Origin: Rhodotorula mucilaginosa | Taxonomy: Eukaryota > Basidiomycota > Microbotryomycetes > Sporidiobolales > Sporidiobolaceae | Reading direction: 5' to 3' | Length of the DNA: 64,000 bases | NCBI GenBank assembly: GCA_034406715.1 | Contig: CP137870.1 | Span: 1,178,001-1,242,000 of the forward strand | Part shown: piece after piece, positions 7,060 to 56,033 of the stretch | Layout of the letters: each line of letters starts with the position of its first letter | Numbering within the stretch: position 1 is the stretch's first letter | Program-made: the position numbers and the translations under genes | The notes under the pieces: model-generated | Databases searched by the model: none | Told to the model about the DNA's origin: nothing | What the model saw: the letters and a program-made list of their open reading frames with translations, nothing else

Positions 7060-7992
7060 CGCACCGCACCGTCAGCCCTGGACACCGCAGCGAAACAGCG
7101 AGGGAAAGTAGAGACGCACCTTGGCAGAGCGGGAGAGCATCCTGGGTCCTGTCTCTATGCGGGTAACGTAGATCTATGTGGTACGATGCACAGAAGAGCG
7201 GAAAAGAGAAAGTCGGCGAGGAATTTCTCACCGGCACAACTTTGTCGAATTCCGACTGCCTCGGCTCTCGCTCTCACTCCCTCCGAGGGCTCACTGTCCT
7301 CATAGTGCCCTCTTGCACCTCTGCTGCTACCACCTGGACGCTTGACCGAGCCTCTAGGCGCGCCGAGGCATGTGCCGCGGCTTGCGATCCTCGGAGCGTT
7401 TCGGCTAAATTTTCACCTCTCGCACCCGTCGATTTGAGGTACACAGCACCAGGCTCACGGACTTCGGGACGACACCGCGTCGCAGCTGCTCACACTCTCT
7501 TGCACACGCCCGGGCGCAATGCCTGCCGCTTGCGCCCCCGCCACATGCACCATCGACGCTGCTAATTCGGCGGTGGTCTCATCGCACGGGCATCCGCTTT
7601 CCCCCAGCGCTGCTGCCGGTCTCAAAGCTGAACCATACTATGCTTTGCACAACCGGCGCCGATGTCTCTGCATCCTGGTGCCTCGGTCCCGCTTGTCGAG
7701 GTTCCCCTTATCAGCTTTTTTCCCCCGTGCGGCGAGAACAGTCATCCCGGCTTACGCCCCGCGCCCCCGCGACGTACGCCAAGCTTGACCATCAAGTGCA
7801 GCGCCGCCACAGAGGCAAGCACCGCCACGGATAAGTCGAGAGGGCTAGAGCTTCACCGCGTGACCGTGCAGAGGTCCGCGGACAAGCCGGTTTGTCACTC
7901 CGTCGTCGTCTGGAGCTCTCCTCCCTTTTGACTCGTTCACCTACCTGCTTCACCACCCTTGCGTGAACCCGCAAAAGTCGCTCCTCCACACC
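7060..7992. other. Intergenic: divergent promoters of FUM1 and tandem gene A
   Basis: About 930 bp between two divergently transcribed genes. Open frames on both strands have no recognisable motif. The right-hand part contains the CGG-N5-CCG element listed separately, about 100 bp before the start of gene A. Confidence 0.5.
7876..7889 (+). promoter_or_regulatory. CGG-N5-CCG element upstream of tandem gene A
   Basis: The sequence CCGCGGACAAGCCG lies 103 bp before the ATG of gene A. Its core, CGGACAAGCCG, is an inverted CGG/CCG pair with a 5-bp spacer, the geometry of sites bound by fungal Zn2Cys6 dimers. The same core precedes genes B and C and the PL14-like gene. The regulatory role is inferred from position and recurrence only. 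Confidence 0.45.
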
Positions 7993-9593
7993 ATGTCGCA
8001 ACACGCCGTTCGCACCATTACCGACACCAGGTCGCATACCGACCCGCTGCCAACCTTCCGCACGAACCCTGATGTGCCCTTCGCCGAGTTTGTGGCCCAA
8101 CAAGCGCGTCTCGGCGAGCAGCTGAATCATCTGGAATCTGCCGTGGGTCGGTTCTCAGAGCCGCGGAAGAATCGGACCCCTGCACGGCGGGCAGCCGACA
8201 AAGAGACGCGTGACAATTTCGACACGGCGTCCGAGGCCGTTAACGGTATCTTGCATCGCCTGCAAACTACCTTCCCAAACGAGAGAGCGTGGTCCAAGGC
8301 CGACAAAGCTGACATGCTCAGCTCCGTGGACCCTTTCGCGAACCCTATCCGGGAGGGGTTTGTCAAGACTTTCCAGGCGTCGCTCACGGACAGGCTGTTC
8401 GAGCTTCACAAAGCGGTCAAAGACCTTGTCACGACTCCTACTTTGGACCGCTCGGAGGACGTTATTGTGCGCAGACTATGACTCTTCCTGGTTGGTGAGG
8501 GAGGAAGGCTGCAGCTGATCTGGTGTCCTTATGTGGTGCAGATCAGTGCCGTGATCGAACTAGGCCAATGCATTGCATGTCCAGAGAACTTGTTGCTTAC
8601 AGTCGGGCCCCGCATTGACCGTGCAGTGATGCAGGACAACTTTGACATGTCAAGTCCGGCTCGTCGCGGACACATTCCGTCCGAGTACTTTGCAAAGCAG
8701 ATTAGCGTAAACGGTGTTTCGCGGCCCCCTGCAGACTCCGATTGCCTGTAATCTTTGCTTGACAACACGAGCCTGCTTACTCTAGTCTACAAACAGATCC
8801 ACGGCGAATGCGATTGCCGTATGCTCGCCACAATCCTGAGCGGCCTTCATGACGTCGCCACCGCCCTGCTCGGACATGCGAAGAAAGAGGATCTCACTCG
8901 GTTCAACACATTGTTTTCAGTTACAGAGCCTTCAGTCTGGCGCATGCTAGACATAGTGAATCCAGCAGGTGGGTGTCAAGGGAGAACAACACAAGGCTTC
9001 AGGGCAACGTACGGTCGGCTGCTGTTCGAAGGAGCCCATCACACTGACTATATAGCGGAGCTATTGCCGGAAGACGAGCGTCTGCCTTATCTGGTGGGGG
9101 ACTTTACATTCTCATGAAAGAGTTGTCACAACTTTGCTATTGTTACATTTGTTTTCATCAGCTGACCGAGTTTGAACATTTGGACCGCCTTGTGGCAAGT
9201 TTTCTCGGTCTTGTTCCCCCCTCCTTGCCGTTGTTCCTGACGATGTTGTTGACCATGATGCGCTACATTCCACACAGCGGGATGGCTTGCAAGCTTGGAA
9301 GCTTGCGCATGAAGAAGGCGGCGAGCGCTCTTTCTCGGTGAGAAGCGCAGTGTTCCTTTCCTACCACAGCGCTGACTTGCTATCTTGTACAGAAACATCT
9401 TCTGGGTCCTGCGACGGGCATGTCGTACCTGTCCCCGCGATATCGAGCCATCTACAACAGTCAGAGTGTCTGCGTTCCGCGGCCTTCGCCACCGCTTCTA
9501 AATCCTGCTCTGCTTCTTTCCACCTCTTTTCCCCTTGATCTAAAAACACAGCCAAGGTATACTCTCTTTCTCTGTGCCTGCCTTTTCGTATAG
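7993..9593 (+). CDS. Unknown protein family, tandem copy A
   Basis: I do not recognise the family. Exons supported by comparison with copies B and C: 7993-~8466 (ATG in a good context), a small unresolved exon near 8542, then 8635-8706, 8797-9093, 9162-9194 and 9393-9593. Exon 1 carries FPNERAWSKADKADM and KTFQASLTDRLFELHKAVKD; exon 3 SSPARRGHIPSEYFAKQ; exon 4 ATYGRLLFEGAHHTDYIAEL, LLPEDERLPYL; a 33-nt exon encodes LTEFEHLDRLV; the last exon has HLLG...LSPRYRAIYN. The 33-nt exon is followed by GCAAGT, so a GC-AG intron is likely. The product (about 320-350 aa) looks soluble and mostly helical, with no signal peptide or membrane segment. The last exon is longer (66 codons) than in B and C. Confidence 0.6.
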
Positions 9594-10295
9594 CGAAGCA
9601 CTGGGGCTGAATTTTCACTTGACTTGACAAAGCGGGAGGGAACACTGAGAGCGGACAGAGCGCATCTTGCTCTGAGTCTTGGCTCGTGCACTCGGAGAAG
9701 CTTGCTCCGCTAAGGCTGTAGAGGCGGACGAGTGGATGCTATGCTGATGAATTCAGCAAGCTACGGGAAGAGCCTGAAAAGATCACCTCCGTAGGGTGGC
9801 CTTCTCAGCTTGGCGCGTGGTCTACGCTGATCCGGAAGCTGATTAGCTCATCGCCCCGCGCTGCGACGTTAACGGCAGGGAGTTGGACGGACTTCTTTAT
9901 ACAGTGCAAGCAGGAACGAGTCTCCGGACAGGACACGCCAAGCTTCGGTCGGCGCGCTTTCCGGTCAGATCACCGCTCCAGAAAGACATTGCGGTCCCAT
10001 GCCCTGGGGCCACTTGGCCGCCGCGCAAAGCTTCGTCGACGGCTCTGTGGGAGCACGGCCACAAAGAGCGAGCAGTCGCGAAGGGCGAAATTATGTACTG
10101 GGCTCGGGCGCTCGCACCGCGCCGCGTGACCCCAGCGAGAGGTTCGCGGACAAGCCGGTTCGTCTACCCGTTCGGATCTCTTGCATCGTTCGCCTGATGA
10201 GTATGCTTATCTTCCGGCTTTTCACTCTTAATTCGCCTACGCCGCACACGCTCAGTGCGCACATCCTTGGCGATATCGCGCCGCATCCTGCTGAA
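9594..10295. other. Intergenic between tandem copies A and B
   Basis: About 700 bp of 3' flank of copy A and promoter of copy B. Only short motif-free open frames occur. The CGG-N5-CCG element is at 10147-10157. Just before it the sequence CGCGTGACC recurs, as it does upstream of copy A. Confidence 0.45.
10147..10157 (+). promoter_or_regulatory. CGG-N5-CCG element upstream of tandem gene B
   Basis: CGGACAAGCCG, 138 bp before the ATG of copy B, identical in the 11-bp core to the elements at copies A and C. Role inferred. Confidence 0.45.
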
Positions 10296-11567
10296 ATGGA
10301 GCCGCAGCATCCCATAGCTCCTGTGCCCTTCGCAACGCTCCAAGCCTTACTCAAGCGTCTGAAAATCCAGCAGACCCATCTGGCAGATGCGTTGCGAGAC
10401 CATCCCGAGTTATCAAGCGATGAAGGTCTAATCGGGAAACTTGCCCGAGCGGAAGACATGGATGTCTTTCGCATTGCCCGGAGGCTGGAACAGGTCGTAA
10501 AAACAGTGGGCATCACATTCCCAAATGAGCCCGCATGGCGGGTTGCCAATGAGTTCGACTCCACCATATACGCATTCCTCAAGCGGAGGCTTGTCCCGAG
10601 CTACCAAAGTGCAGTGGTAGTCAAACTGGATGAGCTTGATGCAGCGCTGCGCTGTTTCAGGGAAAACCCGGGCGAAACAACCTACCATGATGCTGTACGT
10701 ACGCAGAGGAATGACAGCTGAGTAGATTCAATTGTCACTGATAAAAGCCGACAACTTGTCAGATGCAGTGCCTGCTTGCTCACAGACCCGCCAAAGAATG
10801 CTGGATCCACTCTTCTCATTGATTAAGATGCGAACTGACCAATCCGACACGCAGTTGGTACCTAGCCTTCCGGCCAAGAAGTGCATTCCGGGAAACTTTC
10901 TTTACAGTGCTGTTCCGGTCTCAGTGATGTGAGGCGATCTTCTCACTTTCGGACCTTCCCTTCGCAACTTCTGCTGGATGTTCCGCCAGATCACTGACCT
11001 GGAATATCCCATGTAGGCTGAGATCAATGCCAGGCGCAAGCAAATCACGGACAGTCTTGAACTGCTCAAGAACAGCGCGTTTCGCCGCGGCGCCGTAGCC
11101 AAGGATGTCACCCATCTTGAGGTTCATTTTACGACAGCACACAATCGCATTCTCTGGTCAAATCTCAGCAGGGTCAAGGTTGATGGGGACTCTGGTCCAA
11201 CGTATCAGCGGATTCTCTTTGAAGCAGTTATCCTCGCTCGCGGCATCTACATGATGTTTGACCCACCGCAGGGAAAGGATTATCTGGCAAGTCTATCCTG
11301 TGTGGTCCTGCCATCCACTTGTCGTGTCCACATGCTCACAAAACATCAAGACAGCTCAAACAGCTCAATCTTTTTGACAGCGTTGTTGTAAGTCTCTGCT
11401 TTCCTACCTTTCTCTTGCCAACAGACCTTACTGATCAAGTGTCTACACATCACTAATAGAAAAGAGGACTGGAAGTATGTTTTCATCAGAGCCGAGCTAC
11501 ATTTTCGGTAAGGGGTGACACTGTGTATTTTCCAATTGGCAGCAGCTGCACTAACAAGTCACCTTGA
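10296..11567 (+). CDS. Unknown protein family, tandem copy B (possibly decaying)
   Basis: Paralogue of copies A and C. Exon 1, 10296-10694, encodes the counterpart ITFPNEPAWRVANEFDS and ends at GCT|GTACGT. A short exon 2 could not be placed. Exon 3, 10855-10917, reads SLPAKKCIPGNFLYSAVP. Exon 4, 11017-11286, is 270 nt, exactly the length of exon 4 in copy C; it begins AEINARRKQ and carries PTYQRILFEAV. It ends at CTG|GCAAGT, a GC-type donor. The 33-nt exon 11355-11387 encodes LKQLNLFDSVV and has a perfect GTAAGT donor. The last exon, 11460-11567, diverges from A and C after five residues. Exon 3 also has a strong alternative GTGAGG donor in another phase, so this copy may be losing function. 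Confidence 0.5.
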
Positions 11568-12154
11568 CAGGAACGGCGTAGGTGTGTCTACAACGGGAAC
11601 GGCCTTTCCTGATGCGCTTGATGCCTCCACAACAACTTATGCCGGAGAGTGTGTGCATCAGTCCACACCGTTTCTGACCCTTGCGCGCGGCTATCCCACC
11701 CAGACTCTTCTCTCTTGACAGAATGCGTGCGACTCATGCATTCTCTCCTTATTCTCTTGCAATGAATTTTTCCCCGTTGTGTGTGTTAAAACTACACAGG
11801 CAATTGGGCAGGAGGATTCGGAATCGAGTGAAACGACGCTTGATGTTGTTACGAGCTCGGCTTGGCGCGCACGGACAGCTTCTTGGCGGTTACGTTCTTG
11901 CTCTCGCGTCCCTCGGAGCCCGTCCACGACACTACAGTAAGGCTAAAAAGGAAATGGAGGAAGGGGAGATCGCTTGGCGCTCCTTATCGCGTCCGTCATA
12001 TCGGTTAGCCCAAGTGAGCGAGACCGCGGACAAGCCGGTGTGTTTTTCCCTTCCCGTCCTCCGGCTCTCTTCGTCCTTATCTACACCGGCCTACTCGTCT
12101 TAGACCTTTGGTCTCAGGCAGTAGAACCTGACGGGACGCTGCCTTTTAAGCACC
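11568..12154. other. Intergenic between tandem copies B and C
   Basis: About 590 bp without a recognisable gene. It contains the CGG-N5-CCG element at 12027-12037 and a TTTTAAG stretch just before the copy C start. Confidence 0.45.
12027..12037 (+). promoter_or_regulatory. CGG-N5-CCG element upstream of tandem gene C
   Basis: CGGACAAGCCG (within CCGCGGACAAGCCG), 117 bp before the ATG of copy C. Flanking sequence is otherwise unlike copies A and B, which argues that the element is conserved rather than merely dragged along by duplication. Role inferred. Confidence 0.45.
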
Positions 12155-13638
12155 ATGGCGCGTCCTTCTCCGACGATGCCGCCTGTCTTTCGCACACCTG
12201 CTGCCAGGCGCTTCGAGAAATTGGAGGTCCGGATAGGAGTTCTCGAAAGGCTACAAGGCTTACTTCAGTCTAAGTCTCAAGAGGAATCTCACACTGCCAC
12301 CACAGTAACCGCCAGATGGCACGGAAACAGTGTTTACCTGACACCCAGGGAGGCAGCGGAACTAGCCACACAGGAGCGACGCAACCTTCACCGCGCGTCG
12401 GAACACCTATCAACTGTTGTGAATCGCTTGCGCGACCTATTCCGAGACGGGCGCGCATGGCGCGCAGCCGACATGGCCGACATGGCCGAGTCCGCCCGCA
12501 CTGGCGAAGAATGTTCTGTTACGACTTTCCAAGCGTCGCTCCTCAGCTTGCTGCGAGATTTGTGCCGTCAAGCCCAGGTCTTGATGAAGACTCCTACTAC
12601 CAAGCACTACAGAGAGTTCGTAAGTATGCTGGCAGCGTCTACAGTCAACTTGAGCGGCAAGGGCGCTGACTAACATCCGGGGCTGGGCTCAGAAAACATG
12701 CATATCAGATCTCGCAGCTATTGAGGTAGGCTAAGGGTCCTTCATCTCTGTACACATGCTGTACTGACATTTTAGCACCTCCAGCTTCGTTTCTCTAATA
12801 GCCGAGCCCGTTACGGACACCTTCCGACGGAGTACCTCGCCACACTGAAAGATGTGAGGTGGTTGTTCTACGCGTGCAGGCCTGCAGAGCCAGCTTAGAC
12901 CCTCATTCTCCAGAGCGCCTGCAGTCTTGGCCGTGATTGCAATACTGACTGTTCTTCCTGTATAGGCTGAGCTCAGTTCCGCCGGACCCGAGGAGTTGCG
13001 AAAAAGCTTCTTGGCTCTCGCGTCCCGTGCGAAGGCCCTGGGCGCCACTGGACACGAGCTAGACCAGTTTCAGCTTCTTTCCCAGGCGCCTGAAGACCAC
13101 CTGTGGCCCAGGCTTGACATACTGAAGACAAAGGGTAATCTCTCTGCAACGTACCAGCGGATTCTGCTCGAAAAAGCCGTGCATACTGTATACATGGCAC
13201 CCCTTCTACCTGAAGAAGAGCAACGCGCCTACCTGGTACCAACTTTCTCTCTGTGCGTGAGGTGGATGAACCTTATCTGACGTACTTCTGTCATGACTCA
13301 ACCAGCTTGAGCAACTTGGTCGTCTCAACGACCTAGTGGCCAGTCCTGCTTTCAGTCTCCTACTCTCCCCTCCAGCTGAAGGTACTGACTTTCGCTCTTT
13401 GGCTTGAACAGAAGGAGGGTTTGGAGGCTTGGAACAAAGGAACTAGAGCAGGAGAGGAAAGATCATCCGTGGTGAGGACTGCGGCTCGGATCAGCTCAAC
13501 ACCGCAGTGCTGAATCATAGAGTCTAGCAGGAGCACCGCTTGGGACATTCGCCTGGCATTTTGATCCTCTCACGACGCTACCAAGCCATCTATAACAGGC
13601 ATGACAGCCGTGCCCGCGTCCTCCATGACCGCTGCTAG
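12155..13638 (+). CDS. Unknown protein family, tandem copy C (best-preserved)
   Basis: Six exons fit in a single phase: 12155-12619, 12693-12725 (33 nt, KTCISDLAAIE), 12776-12853, 12966-13235 (270 nt), 13306-13338 (33 nt, LEQLGRLNDLV) and 13531-13638; 328 aa. The ATG sits in an ideal CACCATGG context. Exon 1 holds LFRDGRAWRAADMADMAES and TTFQASLLSLLRDLCRQA. Exon 3 has RARYGHLPTEYLATLKD. Exon 4 has LWPRLDILKTKG, SATYQRILLEKAVHTVYM and LLPEEEQRAYL. The last exon has LSRRYQAIYN. There is no signal peptide or membrane helix. The donor after the second 33-nt exon reads GCCAGT, which is weak, so that boundary is tentative. Function unknown; the family is defined here by its three tandem copies. Confidence 0.6.
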
Positions 13639-13958
13639 GACGCCGTAGGTTCCTGCACTCTTTCTCACGCACTTCTCTTCCTGCACACATTTTGAGCTCT
13701 TGCAAGTTACACTTCTACTGTTTGACATCGAGGGGCTTGCGAGTCAATTGCAGCGAGGACTATACGAAGCGAAAGCAAGTTGAAACGGGGTGGGCGAAAG
13801 CAAGGCTCGGGTATCGACTTGCGCACTCCAAGACCCTGCTTTCCCGTGTACAAGTCTCAGTCACAAACGGGATGAAGTGATCATGCTAGTGTAGTACACC
13901 CGGAAAGCTAACTATGCACTGAGAAAAAAGCAAGCGGGTTGTTGACCTTCTCATCCGC
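13639..13958. other. Convergent 3' ends, nothing recognised
   Basis: 320 bp between the stop of tandem copy C (+) and the stop of the disordered protein (-). No gene is seen; it should hold both polyadenylation regions. Confidence 0.4.
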
Positions 13959-16353
13959 TCACTCGCTCGCGAGCGCGGATACTTCTGCTCCCTCGACCTT
14001 GACGTCCGCCAGTACCTCACCCAACTCCATTGCCTTCGCCTCGATCGCTTCGCGCATCAGGCGAGGTAAGCGCACCTGGTCGAGCGGCAGGATCTCCCGC
14101 TTCCATTCCTTGCGCCGACCGCCGACGCCGTCCCCGACTCGCAAGCGCGCAGACGACCGCGCTTGATCGTATGCGGCGACCCGTTTCTCCCGCTGGCGCG
14201 ACGACGCCTTGACTGCACGTCCGACCTCGCGCTCGGCGAGCCAGTCCTCCTTGGCCGACTCGTCGCTTGGCGCCTCATCGCTGACGGGGAGGTCGTCTTC
14301 GGACGAGAAAGTTCCAGTCGTGCGGAGGTAGTACGCGAGCTCGTCTTCCGAGGAAGGGGGACCGTCTGGAAGGGAATCGTCGGTCGGCCAGCGGGGATGA
14401 CGAGGCGGGAGGAAAGACGAAGTGTAATGCAACGGCTCCGTGGAGTGTCGCTTCGCTTTCGGGCGCGTCTCCTCGACGGTCGGCGTCTCGGCAGGAGGAT
14501 CAGGCACAGGCCCGTGAATCACCGCTTCCTCCGTCTGAGTCGAACCTTGACAATGTTGCGAGACGCCGCCGATTTCGCCAACCTCGTTGTCAACGACTGT
14601 TTCCCCGCTCGCAGTCGCTTCGACTGGCTCGGGCGAAATCATCGAAGCATCTGCAGGGTTTGTGACTCCACCTTGCTCGGGCTCCTCCATCCCTCGGGTT
14701 TCTTCTTGCTGCGGGTCGCCTTCCGACGGTGCGCCCCGAACCGTCGAATCACCGTCGTCACCTTCTGCATGCGCCTCGACCTCGCCGACGGCATCGCGAA
14801 GACTAGTGTTCGCCTTGATCGTCGTGTTACCGTCGGAAGGTTCGACGAGCTCCTCCTCCTCAGCCGCGACGCGACCGGCCATCATCGGCGAGGTCTGCGC
14901 AGGTTGCGACGCCGACGCGCTGTCGTCCCAAGTCTCGAGCATGATCGTCGAGTCCATCCCCTCTCCGGCGACGTCTCCGTCAATCCTAGCGAGGAGACTC
15001 TTGCGATCTCCGCCGCAGCCTCCTCTGCCGCCGATCGCCGGCTCGAGTTGCAAAGAAGGCAAATCTCCGAATTCGGTCGTCGTGAACTGAAAGACCGGCA
15101 AACCCTCCGTCGCAGGTCCGATCGGCGAGCTCGAGTGCTGCAAGCCTGGCGCGGCTGGTGTAGAGAGAGCCCAGGGAGCAGGTTTGGCGAGCGGCTGCGA
15201 TTCGGCTGCCTGGCTTGGAGGAACGAGGAACTGCGGAGCGCGAGAAGAGCGAGCCGTTCCGCCCGTCGGATGTTGTTGCTGCGACGAAGAAGTCGGCGAG
15301 CGAGGCAGAGGCTGAGTCGAGAGTGACCCGCGTCGAGCGTCGCTGAGGAGTGTCGTAGGAGGCTCCGAGGCATGGCGAGCGATCAAACGGCGAGGCGGAC
15401 GTGGGCGGCGCGCGGGAAAGTCGGTCAGAGGCAACGAAGGACGCCGCGCGGGAGACGGGGCGAGTTGTGGCGCTCCCGTGGACGTCGCTGAGCTGTCGCG
15501 ATAGACATGCAGGGCGGTCCCGATACGCGAGGGGCTGCCGATCGGATTCGATGGTCCAGCCGCCCGCGATGCAGTTCTCGTCGCCGGCGCGGTGGCAAGA
15601 GTCGACACCGCACTCTTATTCCGCAACGCTCCTTGTTTTCGTTGCGTCTGGTTCGACTTGTCGGCCAGAGCGGTGCTCTTGCGCCGAGCGGTGCCGGTGG
15701 TCGGAGGCGGGTCGGGACGGGCGGAATCGCGTTCACAGTCGTCGCGACCGCCGCCATGCGAAGAACCGCCGGTGGCAGGTTTCGCACCTAGACTGTTTGC
15801 CGCCACTACCGAGCGTCGGTTCTTCCGAGTCGAGAGGGCTGACTGTTCGTCCGAGACCTCCGAAGTCGTCTTGGTCTGTTTGAGCTTGTGGCGACGCTGA
15901 AACCGAGCGAGCACGAGCGCGCCTCGTCAGCATCTCACTACATCGCAAGCGCTCATACGCAAAGGTGCGTGGTTCGAGACTCACCGTCTTGACCGGCGAG
16001 GTCTGCGCGCCCTCGGCCTCGCTCTCAACATCCGCGTCGGTCTCTTCGAGCGCGCGCTCCTTGCCTTTCGTCGATGGCTTCGTGCGACGGGCAGGAGCTG
16101 GAAGCAATCGCTTGGAGGGACCCGATCTCCTCTCAGGAGACGGCGTACTGAGCTCGCCGTCGTCGTCGCTGCTGCTGCTGGCGAGTCGTCTCTTGCCCGC
16201 GTTTGACTGACTCGGCCCTGCAGCCGAAGGAGGCGCCGGCTTGGCTCCGCGCTTGCCGTAGCACCTCGTAGTAGCTCCCTTCCGACGCTGCAAGCCGACG
16301 CGAGACTGCTTCGGCGGGGAAGGGAGCGAGTCGTATTCCGTTTCGGAGCTCAT
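13959..16353 (-). CDS. Disordered, basic, probably nuclear protein of unknown function
   Basis: Two exons in phase: 16353-15985 and 15896-13959, 768 aa. The first ATG in frame opens MSSETEYDSLPSPPKQSRVG; the frame stays open upstream without an ATG. Composition is dominated by Ser, Pro, Arg and acidic residues with many SP/TP sites, as in a CDK-regulated nuclear protein. A short basic motif TTRCYGKRG sits near residue 28, and basic clusters (RRTKPSTKGKER, RRHKLKQTK) could be nuclear localisation signals. The most ordered-looking part is the last ~120 residues, containing KEDWLAEREVGRAVK and ILPLDQVRLPRLMREAIEAK, probably helical. I recognise no domain. A chromatin or cohesin-related role is a guess from composition only. 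Confidence 0.6.
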
Positions 16354-22940: not shown

Positions 22941-23120
22941 TCTTCGACTACGTGCTATCCATATCATCTCTCGATCGGACGCGCGATTCACCATGTATGT
23001 ATAACACACTTGCAATGCACATACTGACTTTCCAACAGCCGGTGTCATAGTGATCCCTCTCGAAGGAAAAGCACGAGCCTAGCATGATCACGAGCGCACG
23101 AGGCGCAGGTGCCGACTCCG

Positions 23121-23131
23121 CGGACAAGCCG
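23121..23131 (+). promoter_or_regulatory. Fourth CGG-N5-CCG element, upstream of PL14-like gene
   Basis: CGGACAAGCCG inside CCGCGGACAAGCCG, the same 14 bases as at tandem copies A and C. It lies 81 bp before the start of an unrelated gene. No flanking similarity to the tandem family was seen. Role inferred from recurrence. Confidence 0.4.
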
Positions 23132-48422: not shown

Positions 48423-50123
48423 ATGACGGAGGGGAGACCGCTGGCATTGCTGGAGCGCTATCAGCTATCGCGCATCAACGTAGGCGTCCCCGCGACAGTC
48501 TGCCTCACCGCGCTCCTCCGCATCCCAGCCGAGTCATCATCGCCTCTGCAGTTGGAAGCGACGCTCGCTCGAGCCGTGCCGGTCTTGGTCCAGCGATATC
48601 CGCTCTTGCGCTGCAGAGTCGCAGGAAGTCGCACGGCAACGCCGCGATGGACCCTGCTCGACTCGTCTGCCCCGGACCAATTCATCGGAACCGCAGAGGC
48701 CGCCGCCGCCGAACTCGACCTTAGACTATCCGGAAACGAGGATGCTGCGGGCGTGATCGACGCCGCATTCAAATACATGTCGCGCGTCGACCCGGAGGAG
48801 GGTCCTCTATGGCGCGTGTGGGCTATCGAGGACGCCGACTCGGAGGACAAGGCTGCGGCAAGATGGCGGCGATGGCGAATCGTCTACGCGACGAATCACA
48901 TCCTGACGGACGGGACCGGCGCCCGCAACCTCTTTGCCGACCTGCTCGCCCTTCTGCATCCAAACAACTCGTCCCTATTGCCCGCTCGCGACGAAAAGAC
49001 CGCCCCGGCCGAGCTCCCGCCGCCGATGGAGTCGGTCTTTGATGATGTCTCGCTCTCGTTCCTCGACATGGCCAAAGTCGTCTGGTCCGAGTTCCTTGCC
49101 GCCCCCAACCTCCTCCCGGGGTTCCTTCGCCCCGCCAAATCTCCCATCTTCCACCGCGCACCGCTCGTCCCGCCGCACGCGCAACCCACCGCCATCCCGC
49201 GAACCTTCACCCTCCCGGCATCTCTCGTTGGCGACCTCAAAGTCGCCGCGAAATCAAACAGAGTCGCGACGCTCCACCCTGTCCTGTACATAGCCGGACT
49301 CGCAGCGATCGAAGCGCACAAATTTCCCCCGCCACCCGAGTCGACAATCATTGTCGGTTCGACGCCCGCGTCCGTTCGAGCGCTCGCTCCGTCGTCGAAC
49401 TCGTTACCACACGCGACGGGCAACTACGTCTACGAAGTCAAAGTCCCCCATGCGACCACAACAGCACTCCTCCCCTTCTGGGCCGAGTGTCGCTCCTACG
49501 CCGAAAAGCTCGCCGATCCTGCCACGCGCCAGCACGGCTTGAAAGAGATCGGTCAACTCTCGCTCGTACCCGATGGACCGATCACTCCTCCTCCTTCTTC
49601 CGGCGGCGTCGGACCGACGACCAAGTACGACGCGTGGATGACTGAGCGCGCACAAAAGGCGGAACCGTTCGAGACTACATTCGAGGTCTCGAACCTCGGC
49701 GTGTTGCCGCCGACCGGGTGGGAAAGTGCACATGGCGATGGTGGCGAGACGGGCGACCACCACCAGCTCGTCGAACTCGCGTGGGCGCAGACGGCCATGA
49801 CTGGCACCATCTTTGCCATCAATGTGCGTCCCGGTACTTCCCTTTCCTGCCCTTTTCTTCCCCTTCTCCTCCCTCTCCCTCTTCCCTATCCGAGCCCGAC
49901 CTGTTCAAAATCCAGGACCGTGACTGATCCGACCTGTCCAAATCTGCAGCCCATCGCTTTCCGCGGCGGCGACCTCTCTTTCACTCTCACGTACCGGGCC
50001 GGCACCGTCGAGGAGAGTCTGGTGGACCGCATCTGGTCCTCCTATCAAGACATTTTGCGCAAGATCGCGGCGGGCCAGGTCCCTGCCTCTGCCACGTTTG
50101 CGGAGCTGGCAGCCTCGGCATGA
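48423..50123 (+). CDS. Alcohol O-acetyltransferase-like (BAHD/condensation-fold) enzyme
   Basis: Two exons, 48423-49823 and 49950-50123, 524 aa. The acyltransferase active-site motif HxxxD is seen as YATNHILTDGTGARNLFADL near residue 160. The N-terminal LERYQLSRINVGVPATVCL and the block VLVQRYPLLRCRVAG match fungal AATase-domain proteins, as do FEVSNLGVLPPTGW and the C-terminal FTLTYRAGTVEESLVDR. Such enzymes transfer acetyl or other acyl groups from CoA to alcohols or sterols; the substrate is unknown. The 126-nt intron is a multiple of three and free of stops, so intron retention would add 42 Pro/Leu/Ser-rich residues without a frameshift. Confidence 0.82.
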   Translation: MTEGRPLALLERYQLSRINVGVPATVCLTALLRIPAESSSPLQLEATLARAVPVLVQRYPLLRCRVAGSRTATPRWTLLDSSAPDQFIGTAEAAAAELDLRLSGNEDAAGVIDAAFKYMSRVDPEEGPLWRVWAIEDADSEDKAAARWRRWRIVYATNHILTDGTGARNLFADLLALLHPNNSSLLPARDEKTAPAELPPPMESVFDDVSLSFLDMAKVVWSEFLAAPNLLPGFLRPAKSPIFHRAPLVPPHAQPTAIPRTFTLPASLVGDLKVAAKSNRVATLHPVLYIAGLAAIEAHKFPPPPESTIIVGSTPASVRALAPSSNSLPHATGNYVYEVKVPHATTTALLPFWAECRSYAEKLADPATRQHGLKEIGQLSLVPDGPITPPPSSGGVGPTTKYDAWMTERAQKAEPFETTFEVSNLGVLPPTGWESAHGDGGETGDHHQLVELAWAQTAMTGTIFAINVRPGTSLSCPFLPLLLPLPLPYPSPTCSKSRTVTDPTCPNLQPIAFRGGDLSFTLTYRAGTVEESLVDRIWSSYQDILRKIAAGQVPASATFAELAASA

Positions 50124-50318: not shown

Positions 50319-53300
50319 CTAGTATCCTGCTCCGCCGCCCCAGCCGATCGCGAGGGTATTTTGACCGAGTCCGAGAATCGGCGCCGAGTTCTCCTCCTCC
50401 TCCTTCTGGACTGTCCGGCTCGACAAGTCCTCGAGCTTCTTGGTGAGCGCCGCGAGCGAGTCGTTGCGCAACCGCTCGACCTGCAACCGGTACGGCATGT
50501 ACACGTCGTGGAAGCTGTGTCGCCACGAGAGTTCCTCGGCGACGTCGGCGCGGATCAGGTCAAACGCGGCAAAGAGGAGCGCGACAAAGCACTCGCGCGA
50601 GCCAATGTCGCTAAAGTACCGCAACAGGTCCTCGGCGACTTCGGTGCTGTTCGAGACGGCCGCGGTCGTGATCGCGTCCTTGAACAGCTTGTCCTCCTTT
50701 GACAGCGCAATCGACCGGTCCCACTTGCTGTTCTTCGTGTACAAGTGTGCGGCGACTGCAAGGGCGCAGCAAAGAGTCAGCTTCCGTTGAATTCAGCTCG
50801 GCGCGGGAGGGGGGCACAGCTCACGTCGTCGGAACTCGAGCAGGTCGTGCTTCTCCAACCGGGCGGCCAATCCCATCGAGTCGAACGCATCGTTCGTGTC
50901 GATCGAATCCCGCAGCGTCTTGTAGTCCTCCTCCTCGATCAAGAGGTCGTTGAAGGCCTCGTTGACCGCCGGGATATTGTTCTTCTGCACCGAGATCAGG
51001 TAGTTCTTGATCACTGTAGGCCAGGGAATGGAGTCAGTCAGGCGATTCTGCATGAGCAAGTAAAAGGGCTCCTTACTCGGAAGCTCATCGGCCTTCTTGA
51101 ACATCTTGACGACGCGGGTGTGGTCGACACGGGCCGAGAGGACACTCAAGAGGTCGTTGAGCAGGAGCGGCTGCTGCTCGAGGTAGAAGTTGAGAGCCTT
51201 GTAGTAGATCTCGACATTGGCGACCTTGACGACGACCTCCTTGAACTGGTTGTGCTCCCACGCGTCGGCGGATCGCTCCATCATGGCGAGGGCGGCGTTG
51301 TCGAATTCGTCATAGTGGACGTAGAGGAAGACGAGCTCCGGCCAGAGGTGCGCCTGCTCCGCAGCCCGCAAGACCTTGGGGATGTCTGAGGGTAGGGGAC
51401 GATCGTCAGCTTGCTTTGCCCACAAGGCACGATACTCTGCCCACTCACTCAGGCGAGACCAGAAAAGCTTGAGGTGCTCCATCAATCGCTCGGGCTTGTA
51501 CTGTTAGAGCCGAGAGAGTCAGCCATGATTCGTGCAACAGCAGGCTGACAAGGAAGGACTGGCGCACCTTGGCGTAGAGGATGGCGAGCTCGGTGAACAT
51601 GCCCATGTGGGCACGCTCGAGGCCGAGACCGGCCTCGAGAAGGGCCATCAGCTCGTCGACGTGGCCGCGGTACTCGTACAGGTGAACGAGCGCTTGGAGC
51701 TCCTCGGCGTGGACGATCAAGTTGAGACCGCAAATCTGCGCGAGACGGAACTCGTGCTTCTCGATGCATGCCGCGTTGACCTGCTTCCAGACCTGGGTGT
51801 TGCCGGCCTTGCGGGCGGCGTCGACGGCAGCCTGGTTCTCGCCGAGGTAGATGAGGGTGGTGGCGAGGCGAGCCCAGTTCGAGATGCTGGTGAAGAGGAG
51901 CTTGGCGGCCTCGTACAGGCCAGCGTCAAAGGCCTTTTCACCGGCAGAGAGGAGGTCGGCGACGTTGGTCATGCCGAGGAACTCTTCCATGTCGTGCAGG
52001 CGGTCCGTCTTGGCGTACGAGACGGCAAGCTCGGTGTCGATCGCCGGCTCACGGAGCGTCTTGCGGGCCATCTGCAAGTAGCGGACGAGGTCGTCCTCCT
52101 TGCCGGCACGCGAAGCGGTCTCGATGACCTCGAGGTAGTTGGACGGGTCCTCGGCGCGGATGTACGAGTCGATGGCGTCCTTGACGCGGAGGCCGTCGAG
52201 CTGCGCCTTGCCGAGACGGCTCCAGACGGCGGGCTGGTCGACCTTGTCGGCGTACTGCTGGGCGCGGTCGATCGAGACGATGTACTCGACGAGGACGTTC
52301 ATCGCCTCGAGGTGGAGGTTGTTCTTGCGGTAGAGCGTGAACGCCTCCTCGTACAGACCGTGCTCGAGCATGAGCCCGGCAATCTCCTGGACGTCAAAGC
52401 CCTCGATCTTGTCGATGTAGCCCATAACGCGGCCCTTGTCGGCGCGGATGGCCGTGAGCATGAGCAGCTTCTTCAGGTTCGTGTTGTCGCTGAACGCAGA
52501 CTGCTCGAGGACGATCTTCTCGAGCAGCTCGATGAGCTCTGACGGCAAGTCGGCCGAGAGGAACGCCTTGACCGTCACCGAGACGTCTTCCGGGTCGGTC
52601 GATTCGGGCACGGCGGTGGCGACGACCTGGTCGATGAGCTGGCGCTTGTGGAGGTTGTCGCCCTGGAGGACCTGCTGCCAGAGTTCGAGGCGGCGGCGCT
52701 TGACGAGGTAGCGAGCCTGGTGCTTGAACATCGAGTTTTCGTTCGTGATGGCGATGAGCTCGTCGTCGCAGAGACCCTTGGCGTAGGCAATGTAGGCGAG
52801 GTACGGGTCGCGCTTCTCGCAGTACTTTCCGACGACGAGCGGGTCGTAGATGTTGTTCTCCTTGAGGAACGCTTCCGGGTCGGCGTTCGAGTCGATCTTG
52901 ATCTTGGCGAGCGCGTTGTACAGCGCGGGCTCCTGCTGCCCGGCGTTGATCTTGGCCTCGAGGTAGGGCAAGATCAGCTTGAGGCGGTTCCGCTTCTCGA
53001 CCTCGTCGACGAGCTCGTCGATCGGGACGGGTCCGGTCACACTCGCGAGGAGCGACTTGATCGTCGTCTCGTCGCAGTCGACGTCGAGGAGGGCGCCGAT
53101 CACCTGCGGCGTGCGAGCCGAGTTGACTTGCTGGACGTACACCTCGATAAAGTTGGTCAAGCCGTTCTGGTATAGGTACAGGACGAGGTCGTGCACAAAG
53201 TCGAAGCGGTCGCAGACGATGATGAGCGGCAGCTGGTCCTGGAGCTTGGCCTCCTTGAGGAAGTTCTTGACCTTCTCCGGATTGTAGTAGTTCGACTCGC

Positions 53301-56033
53301 GGACGATGCGCTCGACCTCGCGGAGCTGGCCAGTGCGCGTCGCCGCCTGGATGTACTTGAAGTGGACTTCCGAGTCCTCGCTGAGGTTGACGATCGAGCC
53401 GAGGTAGTAGTACAGACCTGTGCGAGCGAAAATGGGGTCAGCATTGTCTGGTAACGTGACTGGGGAGCGATTGCCGAGACTCACCTTCGGCAGTCTTGAA
53501 CTTTTCAAACATCTCGATGAGGCGGACGGGGCCGATCAAGTCCGAGTACTTGGTCGCGGCCTGGACGACGACCTGCAGGTTCTGGCGAATGTTGACCTTG
53601 AGCATCTCGTTGAAGCACTCGAGCGTCTGCTCGACCGTGAGGGTGCCAAAGTATTCGACGAGCCAGTCCGGCTGGAGGAGGTTGGTGTGGACCACCACGC
53701 GCTTGATGTCGTTGATGTCCTCGTAGTGCTCGAGGGCCCGCTGGGGGAGACCGGCCTTTTCGCAAAGCTGAGCGATGCGAGCCTTGTCGTAGTGCGAGAA
53801 CATCTGGTTGCCGAGGATGGCGTCGGCGACCTGCGGCGCGTTGACGAGGTTCATCTCGAGCAGGCGAGTCTGCAAGTGCCCCTGCTCGGGCTTGTTGTCC
53901 TTGAGCGCGTCGAGGAGGAACGAAGTCGCCTGCTGGATCATGTTCTGGCTCATAAAGACGTCGACGACACGCTCGACGTCGACGAGCGGGCCCATCTCGT
54001 CGTTGACGAGCTGCGAGGCAAAGTCGGCGCCGTGCTCCGGGTTCAGGCGCGTCACGTGTTGCAAGAGCGAGGCGTAGTCGGGAGTGTAGCCGACGCGCTT
54101 GGCATAGACAATGATCTTGGCGTACTGGCCCGTCTCGGCAAAGCACGCGACGACCTTGTTCGGGACGTTGGCGCGCAAGTAGACCGACAGCGCCAGGGTC
54201 ATGTCGTGCGCGCGGACAATGTCACCGAGCTCTTCGCTGCATTCGATCTGGGATTCCGAAGACGAGTCCGAGTCAGTCTTTGCCGTGCCCCAAAACCGCG
54301 TCGGAGGGAAAATCCGAGCGCACCTTGTCCTCCTTGAGCCACTTCTCGAGGAGCTGCTTGCGACCCTGCACGAGGACCGGCCTCGCGAGCTCGAGCGACT
54401 CGTACTTGTTGAGCTTGCCGCGCTCGAGCAGCGTCCCAAAGTACTGCAAGATGGGGCTGAGCTGGCCAGGCTGGACGGGCACGCCCTTGAACATGTCGAT
54501 CGTGGCGGCGGTGCGGAGGAACCCGCGCGGCGAGCCGGCGGCGATCTTGGCCGCGCCCGAGTAGTCGCCCGACTGGAACAGCTGCAGGAACTGCTGCTGG
54601 AAGAGGTCGTCGGCTCCCGGGAGGTTGCCGCGCGAGGCGAGGCGGATCGCGAGCTCGGGGTTGTTCAGGGTCGAGAGGATGTACGGGATCATGACGTCTT
54701 CGTCGACCGTGACGCTGAGGACCTGCCCCTTGCGGTTGATCCCGATGATGCCAGAGGTCGCGCGGTGCTCGCACGTGACAAACATGGTCTCGCCCGAGAT
54801 GCGGTTCATGTAGATGCAGGTGCCGGTCTCGAGGTCGTACAGGTGAATGAAGCCGTACTTGGTGACGAGGTAGACGATGCCGTACCGCTTCGAGACCTGC
54901 ATCGCGACAGGGAAATCGTTCGTGGCCTCGGGCGGGAAGAAGACGTCGACCGCCTTCTTGGTGTAGACGGGCAGGTTCGCCTGGTGGTCAATCTCGACCA
55001 TGTGGAGCTGCAGGTGGAGTAGGTCTCGAGGTGTCAGCGAGGCGCTGGATGGTCGTCAAGGCGTCTGTATAGTCACCTTGGCACCGGTGGCGGTCCGGAC
55101 TGCAAATGTGAACAGCTTGGTGTCGTCGCTGGCGCCCTCGAGGCGGACCTCTGCAAAGCTGGCGGCGTGCCCTTCTATCGGCTGGGACACTCCGCGCTCC
55201 TTCGAGTAGAGCTGCATCGCCCCCTTGACCTTGAAGCCGGCCGGGTTGGTCGTATTGGAGCTGATGCCGACGAGGACGAGCCACTTTTCGTCGGGCGTAA
55301 CGCGGTAGTTGATGATCTGGTTCCCGGCGAGCGAGGCATGGCGATCAAACACCTTGACGGGCGTGTCCGAGACGGCTGCATCGGGCTGGGTCGCCGGGGC
55401 GTAGCACGTCCAGTGGTAGACGGCCGTCTCGGTGACGATACCGATCGTGGTCGGCGAGATCCACTTCCAGAACGTGACGTCCTCGTGCATCAGGTGGGCG
55501 CGCACTTTTTGCTTGAGCTCAATGTTGAAGATCTGCAGCTGCCGTTGAGCTGTCGCGCGCCTCGTTCACTGGTCAGTGTGCCTGCCGTGGGAAGTGGAAA
55601 AGTGGGGCACGAGGACTCACCGCGGAGGGCAATGACCTTGTCGTCGACGTGCATGATGGCGCTCTCTGCCGAGATGGGCCTCCTGACGACGTTGTTGGGG
55701 TCGTTCATGTCGATAATGACGACCTGCTTTGCGCCGTTGACCTCTTCGCGGACGCAGACAAACCGGTCCGACTCGAGGGTCAGGGTCGCGAACCCGATCG
55801 AGCCGGGCTGGACGCCGAGCGCCGTCAGCTGCAGGTGTGAAGTGTCAGTACACAAGCCCACTCGAACATCATCCCGTAGCTGGGTGCCTTCGGTCGCCGT
55901 TGTTCCGAACCCCGAACGCGTGTCGGATCGCGTCTCCTGCCGCCGAACGCAGCGTAGGAGGGCCGCCTTCGAGGGGGCGGGAGGCGGAACTCACCTGCAA
56001 GAGCTCCTGGAAGGCGATAGGGCGGTCCACCAT
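50319..56033 (-). CDS. CHC1: Clathrin heavy chain
   Basis: About ten exons; approximate bounds are 56033-55995, 55834-55622, 55537-55078, 55010-54324, 54250-53486, 53416-51569, 51500-51448, 51385-51078, 51014-50825 and 50758-50319. It starts [13 protein letters not shown], with a phase-0 donor after exon 1. The terminal beta-propeller ([58 protein letters not shown]) is followed by [20 protein letters not shown] and the alpha-zigzag leg ([60 protein letters not shown]). The C-terminal trimerisation region is followed by the tail [17 protein letters not shown]. Length (~1,680 aa) is normal. It forms the coat of endocytic and TGN vesicles. Confidence 0.97.

Follow-up and report, generated by a model that had tools for sequence, protein, structure and literature searches.

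An upstream element shared by a tandem array of orphan genes in Rhodotorula mucilaginosa and by other, dissimilar gene groups of the same genome

In a 64,000-nucleotide stretch of the Rhodotorula mucilaginosa genome (contig CP137870.1, here C7, positions 1178001-1242000; "the window" in what follows), three consecutive plus-strand genes, A, B and C, occupy positions 7993-13638, from the ATG of A at 7993 to the end of the stop codon of C at 13638. Both ends were correctly placed in an initial annotation of the window, which had proposed the three genes as a tandem array of an undescribed family. The strongest signal in this region was absent from that annotation: a near-invariant element shared by the upstream regions of all three genes. 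The same element recurs beside unfamiliar tandem genes elsewhere in the genome (20.35 Mb, 19 contigs), a pattern which, going by sequence, points to a large set of genes, undescribed so far, under common regulation. Our preferred reading, to which we give a little less than an even chance, is that A-C belong to a lineage-restricted orphan family, itself part of a larger set of adaptor-like genes that share the element and would be switched together.

The sequence CGCGGACAAGCCGGT is found exactly before A, B and C, at 7877, 10145 and 12025, with its first base 116-151 bp upstream of the ATG. The form CCGCGGACAAGCCGGT stands on the plus strand before A at 7876-7891 (117 bp before the ATG, preceded by T) and before C at 12024-12039 (131 bp, preceded by A), and B carries the one-mismatch form TCGCGGACAAGCCGGT at 10144-10159 (plus strand, 152 bp before the ATG used in the model). 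Allowing up to two mismatches, the array element gave five hits, of which three were exact, against 0.44 expected, and it is the first-listed direct-repeat family in 7300-14000 (34 nt, three copies). Across the genome, TCCGCGGACAWGCCG has 130 exact sites, distributed over many contigs among the first 100 places listed, compared to none for the reversed control and 0.32 expected under an order-3 Markov model, which was trained on 292 kb of the same genome that is itself element-rich. At up to one mismatch there were 68 sites for CCGCGGACAAGCCGGT versus 4 for the reversed pattern, and 315 for the 14-mer CCGCGGACAWGCCG versus 44. Among 53 examined sites of the 14-mer, bases that had not been selected for were enriched as well, with the flanking T in 46, a final G in 34 and a T in 30; the base before the flanking T was C or G in 48 of the 53, and nothing stood out further outward. 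A search of a 257-Gb prokaryote collection found the 17-mer TCCGCGGACAAGCCGGT in 81 stretches. A fourth exact copy in the window, TCCGCGGACAAGCCG, lies at 23117-23131 on the plus strand (C7:1201117), near a Ser/His-rich open reading frame (ORF) unlike the array genes. On contig C4, three element sites at 520631, 525323 and 530015 have an exact spacing of 4,692 bp, as might result from a tandem duplication that is either recent or of assembly level.

The gene models were drawn by eye from the sequence, with the exons placed through splice sites and comparison of the copies; all exons lie on the plus strand. A has seven exons, of 474 nt (7993-8466), 33 nt (8542-8574, with a GC donor, GCATGT; the least certain exon of A), 72 nt (8635-8706, SPARRGHIPSEY), 297 nt (8797-9093), 33 nt (9162-9194, LTEFEHLDRLV, with the GC donor GCAAGT) and 60 nt (9278-9337), followed by a last exon at 9393-9593 that carries the tail LSPRYRAIYN and whose end is uncertain, the frame being open until the stop at 9593 with a further intron possible. 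C likewise has seven, of 465 nt (12155-12619), 33 nt (12693-12725, KTCISDLAAIE), 78 nt (12776-12853, SRARYGHLPTEY), 270 nt (12966-13235), 33 nt (13306-13338, LEQLGRLNDLV, with the GC donor GCCAGT), 60 nt (13412-13471) and 111 nt (13528-13638), the last with the tail LSRRYQAIYN. B keeps the same order, with a first exon of 399 nt (10296-10694; an alternative in-frame ATG lies at 10197), an exon 2 that was not placed, its region being perhaps fused to exon 3 or lost, and then exons of 63 nt (10855-10917), 270 nt (11017-11286, with the GC donor GCAAGT), 33 nt (11355-11387, LKQLNLFDSVV), 48 nt (11460-11507) and 42 nt (11571-11612, ERRRCVYNGNGLS, ending in a stop).

The rebuilt models thus bear out the exon order and lengths that the initial annotation had seen as shared, including an exon 4 of 297 nt in A and of 270 nt in B and C, and the 33-nt exon 5 with its three peptides; a second 33-nt exon, exon 2, is common to A and C. 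The motif RYxAIY, which had been assigned to all three copies, is present in A and C, and B has RRRCVYN instead. At the protein level, A-C are 19-35% identical to one another in exon 1 and 21-35% in exon 4, which supports the earlier view of old, divergent copies with kept introns, and a codon-position test on the copies was saturated, with second positions mostly lowest, and is suggestive at most. Counting also the two further genes D and E introduced below, all 25 modelled introns are in phase 0 (20 GT-AG and 5 GC-AG), a pattern that is a description and no independent test, because the models were drawn to keep frame and long gaps, of 160 nt in B and 315 nt in E, hide exons. Exon 5 is followed by a GC donor in A, C and D and by a GT donor in B and E, a distribution that may go back to an old GC-AG intron of the family.

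A-D are homologous and form one family. When C was searched against its own genome, it returned itself, A and one weak match at C7:1292633 (27%, E 0.046), which is exon 1 of D, and missed B. This match follows an element at C7:1292279 by 354 bp and belongs to a locus (L062) about 100 kb from the array that holds two tandem genes, D and E, with the element before each. The layout of D (438/33/66/279/33/66/99 nt) is a complete repeat of that of the array, and D was found among 6,847 ORFs by profiles made free of both D and E, at E 3.2e-4 with exon 1 (from A-C and metagenome relatives) and at E 7.4e-6 with exon 4 (from A-C only). In the case of E, exon 1 has 477 nt, exons 2-3 were not placed, and exons of 285 and 33 nt follow. 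We regard E as the probable fifth member, since it lies beside D, has the element before it and retains both a 33-nt exon 5 and the TFQ motif; its membership rests on context because the same profiles score it at 0.12 for exon 1, which ranks below a chance-looking match at 0.062, and at 5.5 for exon 4. An earlier profile built with D and E scored both high, partly by construction, and with D as the query in its own genome the exons of E scored 0.031 and 0.12, with 0.071 for C, such single-sequence searches being weak. The 33-nt phase-0 exon 5 stands in the same order in all five models, and with 153 bp in D and 130 bp in E every element-to-ATG distance in A-E is below 200 bp. The family of three in the initial annotation is a real single family, and one that extends beyond three genes to D and probably E. 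A candidate sixth member, scoring E 0.062 with exon 1 and E 0.059 with exon 4, came up at C2:801.6k and was chance-like on inspection.

To describe the genes beside the element genome-wide, 61 sites were examined, comprising the 14-mer with A or T at its free position and two one-letter variants; the sample is biased, with 30 loci drawn from the first-listed of the 68 hits, others chosen for clustering and four C8 sites included as listed pairs. At these sites the element lies mostly ~90-230 bp from a candidate start codon. An ORF with a paralog near another site (blastp E ≤ 1e-4) adjoins 28 of the 61, in ten groups of which A-C are one, a share that is no genome-wide estimate because the sites were partly picked for clustering. 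The candidate genes read in the direction of the element in A-E, in the groups S1 (C3:1461-1475k) and S2 (C10 and C2) and in most of S3 (C16:469-471k), and opposite to it at C7:23-28k, through much of C16:590-603k and at all four C8 sites. Its use in both orientations would fit a DNA site bound by a protein better than a feature of a leader RNA or of coding sequence. Orphan tandem arrays other than A-C lie behind the element at C3:1461-1475k, C16:469-471k and C8:265-318k, and the single ORF tested from these three, from C8, is without a Pfam match. Among ten hand-picked motif-adjacent ORFs, none was over the Pfam cut-off, the best match being ApoLp-III at E 0.0067, below it.

Some of these groups also share a C-terminal tail. 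The motif [LF]SxRxRAIY, or a one-residue variant of it, is found near the C-terminus of A, C, S1, S3 and two genes of C16:579-603k, that is, in three of the ten paralog groups and two further genes. Its DNA pattern has 15 places in contrast to one in the reversed control; 11 of the 15 are in examined element-bearing arrays, two (C16:608-612k) are beside such an array, and the remaining two are C6:523683 and C14:25355. The sharing of the tail could reflect either one superfamily whose bodies have changed past recognition or a shared tail exon. Between the exon-1 bodies of S1 and another group, S7, profile comparison gave a score of 28.2 (E 0.0004) versus 22.9 for the best reversed control; common descent of the bodies is not claimed, because S7 consists of six ORFs assembled by position. 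A relationship between S1 and S4, the family in the window, was also tried and was set aside at a score of 21.9, below the same control.

Relatives of the array genes were found in metagenomes, where a profile built from the first exons of A, B and C matched 14 ORFs at E ≤ 1, with a best E of 4.9e-61. Identities were counted for 8 of the 14: for C exon 1 they are 154/155 with P0122, 120/155 with P0127 and 110/155 with P0128 (71-99%), for A exon 1 142/158 with P0121 and 103, 100 and 86 with P0126, P0125 and P0130, and for B exon 1 89/133 with P0129. In the comparison of C with P0127 and P0128, residues 95-155 are better kept (56/61 and 50/61) than residues 1-60 (42/60 and 39/60). Most of the metagenome relatives keep open frames, and P0132 is frame-shifted as judged from its sequence. 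The read-through of C intron 1 (window 12620-12673, plus strand; VSMLAASTVNLSGKGAD) is identical in P0127, the exon itself being 77% identical, which would mean either that the start of the intron is constrained or that an unspliced product matters. In a collection of 5.8 billion proteins, from which 7,998 candidates were scored, full-length C had no match at E ≤ 10, a null that is no evidence of absence because the collection stores the relatives as unspliced ORFs, 14 of which the exon-1 profile did find; as a control, a clathrin-like ORF of the window finds relatives of 100, 99, 96, 87 and 85% in the same collection. Pattern matches for the family numbered 38 in prokaryote genomes and 48 in viral contigs, with zero confirmed in either.

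Searches of the array genes against Pfam, NCBIfam and PDB sequences gave nothing over cut-off. Within these libraries the claim of a family without a link to any known domain stands, and the profile search that had been suggested as a check on it reached no well-studied family over the cut-off. The best PDB sequence matches, a designed protein (E 0.019) and vinculin (0.093), were taken as matches of helical composition. C exon 1 is predicted to be helical, with a predicted local distance difference test score (pLDDT) of 79, and the exon-4 model has a mean pLDDT of 57; comparison of the exon-1 model with known helical folds (F-BAR, vinculin tail and others) by Foldseek and VIA-align gave no convincing relative.

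Taking these findings together with our preferred reading, it can be hypothesized that tandem duplication supplies copies within the family, whose bodies would then diverge fast while the exon frame is kept, and that the family would be part of a larger orphan set made up of many mutually dissimilar groups with one common 15-17-bp element. A single sequence-specific factor could bind this element in either orientation and switch the set together; one factor is proposed because of how often and how exactly the element recurs, where it lies and its occurrence in both orientations. The products may be soluble intracellular helical proteins in which the fast-changing body binds variable partners and the constant tail [LF]SxRxRAIY, in several groups, docks to a common partner, a contact that is proposed because the tail persists. 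The whole set would then work as a varied stock of adaptor or recognition proteins. In its widest form the idea would cover orphan genes from many families, more than 100 in all, as one undescribed regulon, in which the near-invariant element outlasts the coding sequence and a basidiomycete rapidly renews a recognition or adaptor repertoire; this is possible, and we hold it with more doubt than belief. Of the "undescribed system" in the initial annotation, the lack of any known family is what has held up, and a system of interacting parts would go beyond what the gene and element data show.

Several findings weigh against the reading of A-C as part of a larger co-switched set. There are 33 sites among the 61 without a paralogous neighbour at blastp 1e-4, 63 of the 98 blastp pairs, which did not connect two sites, were dropped, and the remaining share comes from the partly picked sample described above. 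Some element sites adjoin unrelated-looking genes, for example long low-complexity ORFs. Apart from S1-S7, no comparison of exon-1 body profiles between groups rose above the reversed controls; E was missed by the profiles free of D and E among the 6,847 ORFs; and the tail is absent or weak in most groups and has only a weak form in B and D.

The strongest rival explanation takes the element for a general promoter or architectural site, as for a general regulatory factor, and holds that its link to orphan genes came about through duplicated promoters without any special regulon. The spread of the 130 exact sites over many contigs (among the first 100 places listed) would be expected of such a site, as would the 33 examined sites that lack a paralogous neighbour and those beside ORFs of other character. 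However, the ten hand-picked motif-adjacent ORFs were all short of the Pfam cut-off, and since groups without body similarity share the element, duplication alone fails to explain the sharing. We find a general site unlikely, if still a serious contender. A very improbable alternative sees in the copies the remains of a mobile element or of a transposase gene. P0122, a relative of C, was automatically named "transposase", the G+C content of the array is low (54.4% in 7860-13640 against 61.1% in the rest of the window) and the relative P0132 is frame-shifted, but no Pfam or NCBIfam transposase match was over cut-off for A-C, P0122 or P0127, A-D retain their frames and splice sites, most relatives have open frames, the longest repeats that the copies share, the element aside, are mostly exonic, and the flanks of the element sites are not conserved beyond the element.

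It could also be argued that the arrays are selfish killer or drive genes with a lifestyle like that of the wtf meiotic drivers of Schizosaccharomyces, given their tandem arrangement, fast divergence, small exons and shared regulatory motif; PMC9562144 describes wtf as a fast-diverging multi-exon family, tandem and dispersed in a restricted group, with a shared transcription-factor motif, FLEX, that lies in intron 1 and is not universal. The array motif differs in being upstream, much longer and present across dissimilar groups, and dozens of such groups would be required if all were drivers. Whereas wtf proteins are membrane proteins, A-C have no membrane-like stretch, with no 19-residue window above a mean hydropathy of 1.25. 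FLEX (GTAAACAAACA) has no match in the window at up to one mismatch, which is weak evidence here because many non-pombe wtf candidates are also without it, according to PMC9562144. On balance, drive genes seem to us improbable, if slightly less so than a transposase origin.

Among known regulatory sites, the pleiotropic drug response element of yeast Pdr1 targets, given as TCCGCGGA/TCCGTGGA in PMC5539612, resembles the array element in that the commonest form of the latter reads TCCGCGGA in its first half. Among the three genes this match is exact only in the element of A, with ACCGCGGA in C and TTCGCGGA in B, and the constant part continues here with CAAGCCG; TCCGYGGA occurs 8 times in the window versus 9.1 expected, which is chance level. 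The array is like lineage-specific tandem expansions in general, where orphan families grow by tandem duplication, and unlike them in that dissimilar groups share a long near-invariant element and some of them a C-terminal motif. Fast-evolving orphan arrays are a known kind, but the length of the element and its constancy across dissimilar groups are unusual. Literature searches by title and abstract, several of them narrow, found no publication on the family or the element among the matches listed, which is weak evidence of their being unpublished, and the 14-letter form of the element did not occur among the literature matches listed for it, which have unrelated-looking titles and contain shorter pieces only. 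Orphan families are usually studied singly, as no relatives of their proteins can be detected; a promoter element that remains constant as coding sequences change is a handle for finding such families jointly, and their joint regulation becomes testable via a single factor. If the proposal is true, more than 100 genes would be at hand for asking what drives the rapid turnover of intracellular proteins in a fungus.

The left neighbour of the array is a minus-strand gene of the lyase family (PF00206, E 4.6e-90 in Pfam), which we take to be the fumarase gene FUM1 that the initial annotation named; the lyase family is what the search confirms. The right neighbour, a long minus-strand ORF, has no Pfam match at E 0.001. 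Elsewhere in the window, a long open frame at 48423-50123 on the plus strand matches alcohol acetyltransferase (PF07247, E 6.4e-11), and the clathrin heavy chain-like open frame at 51445-53508 on the minus strand, which served as the control for the protein collection, has its closest named relative in Pisolithus (76%, among the best 120 of 912).

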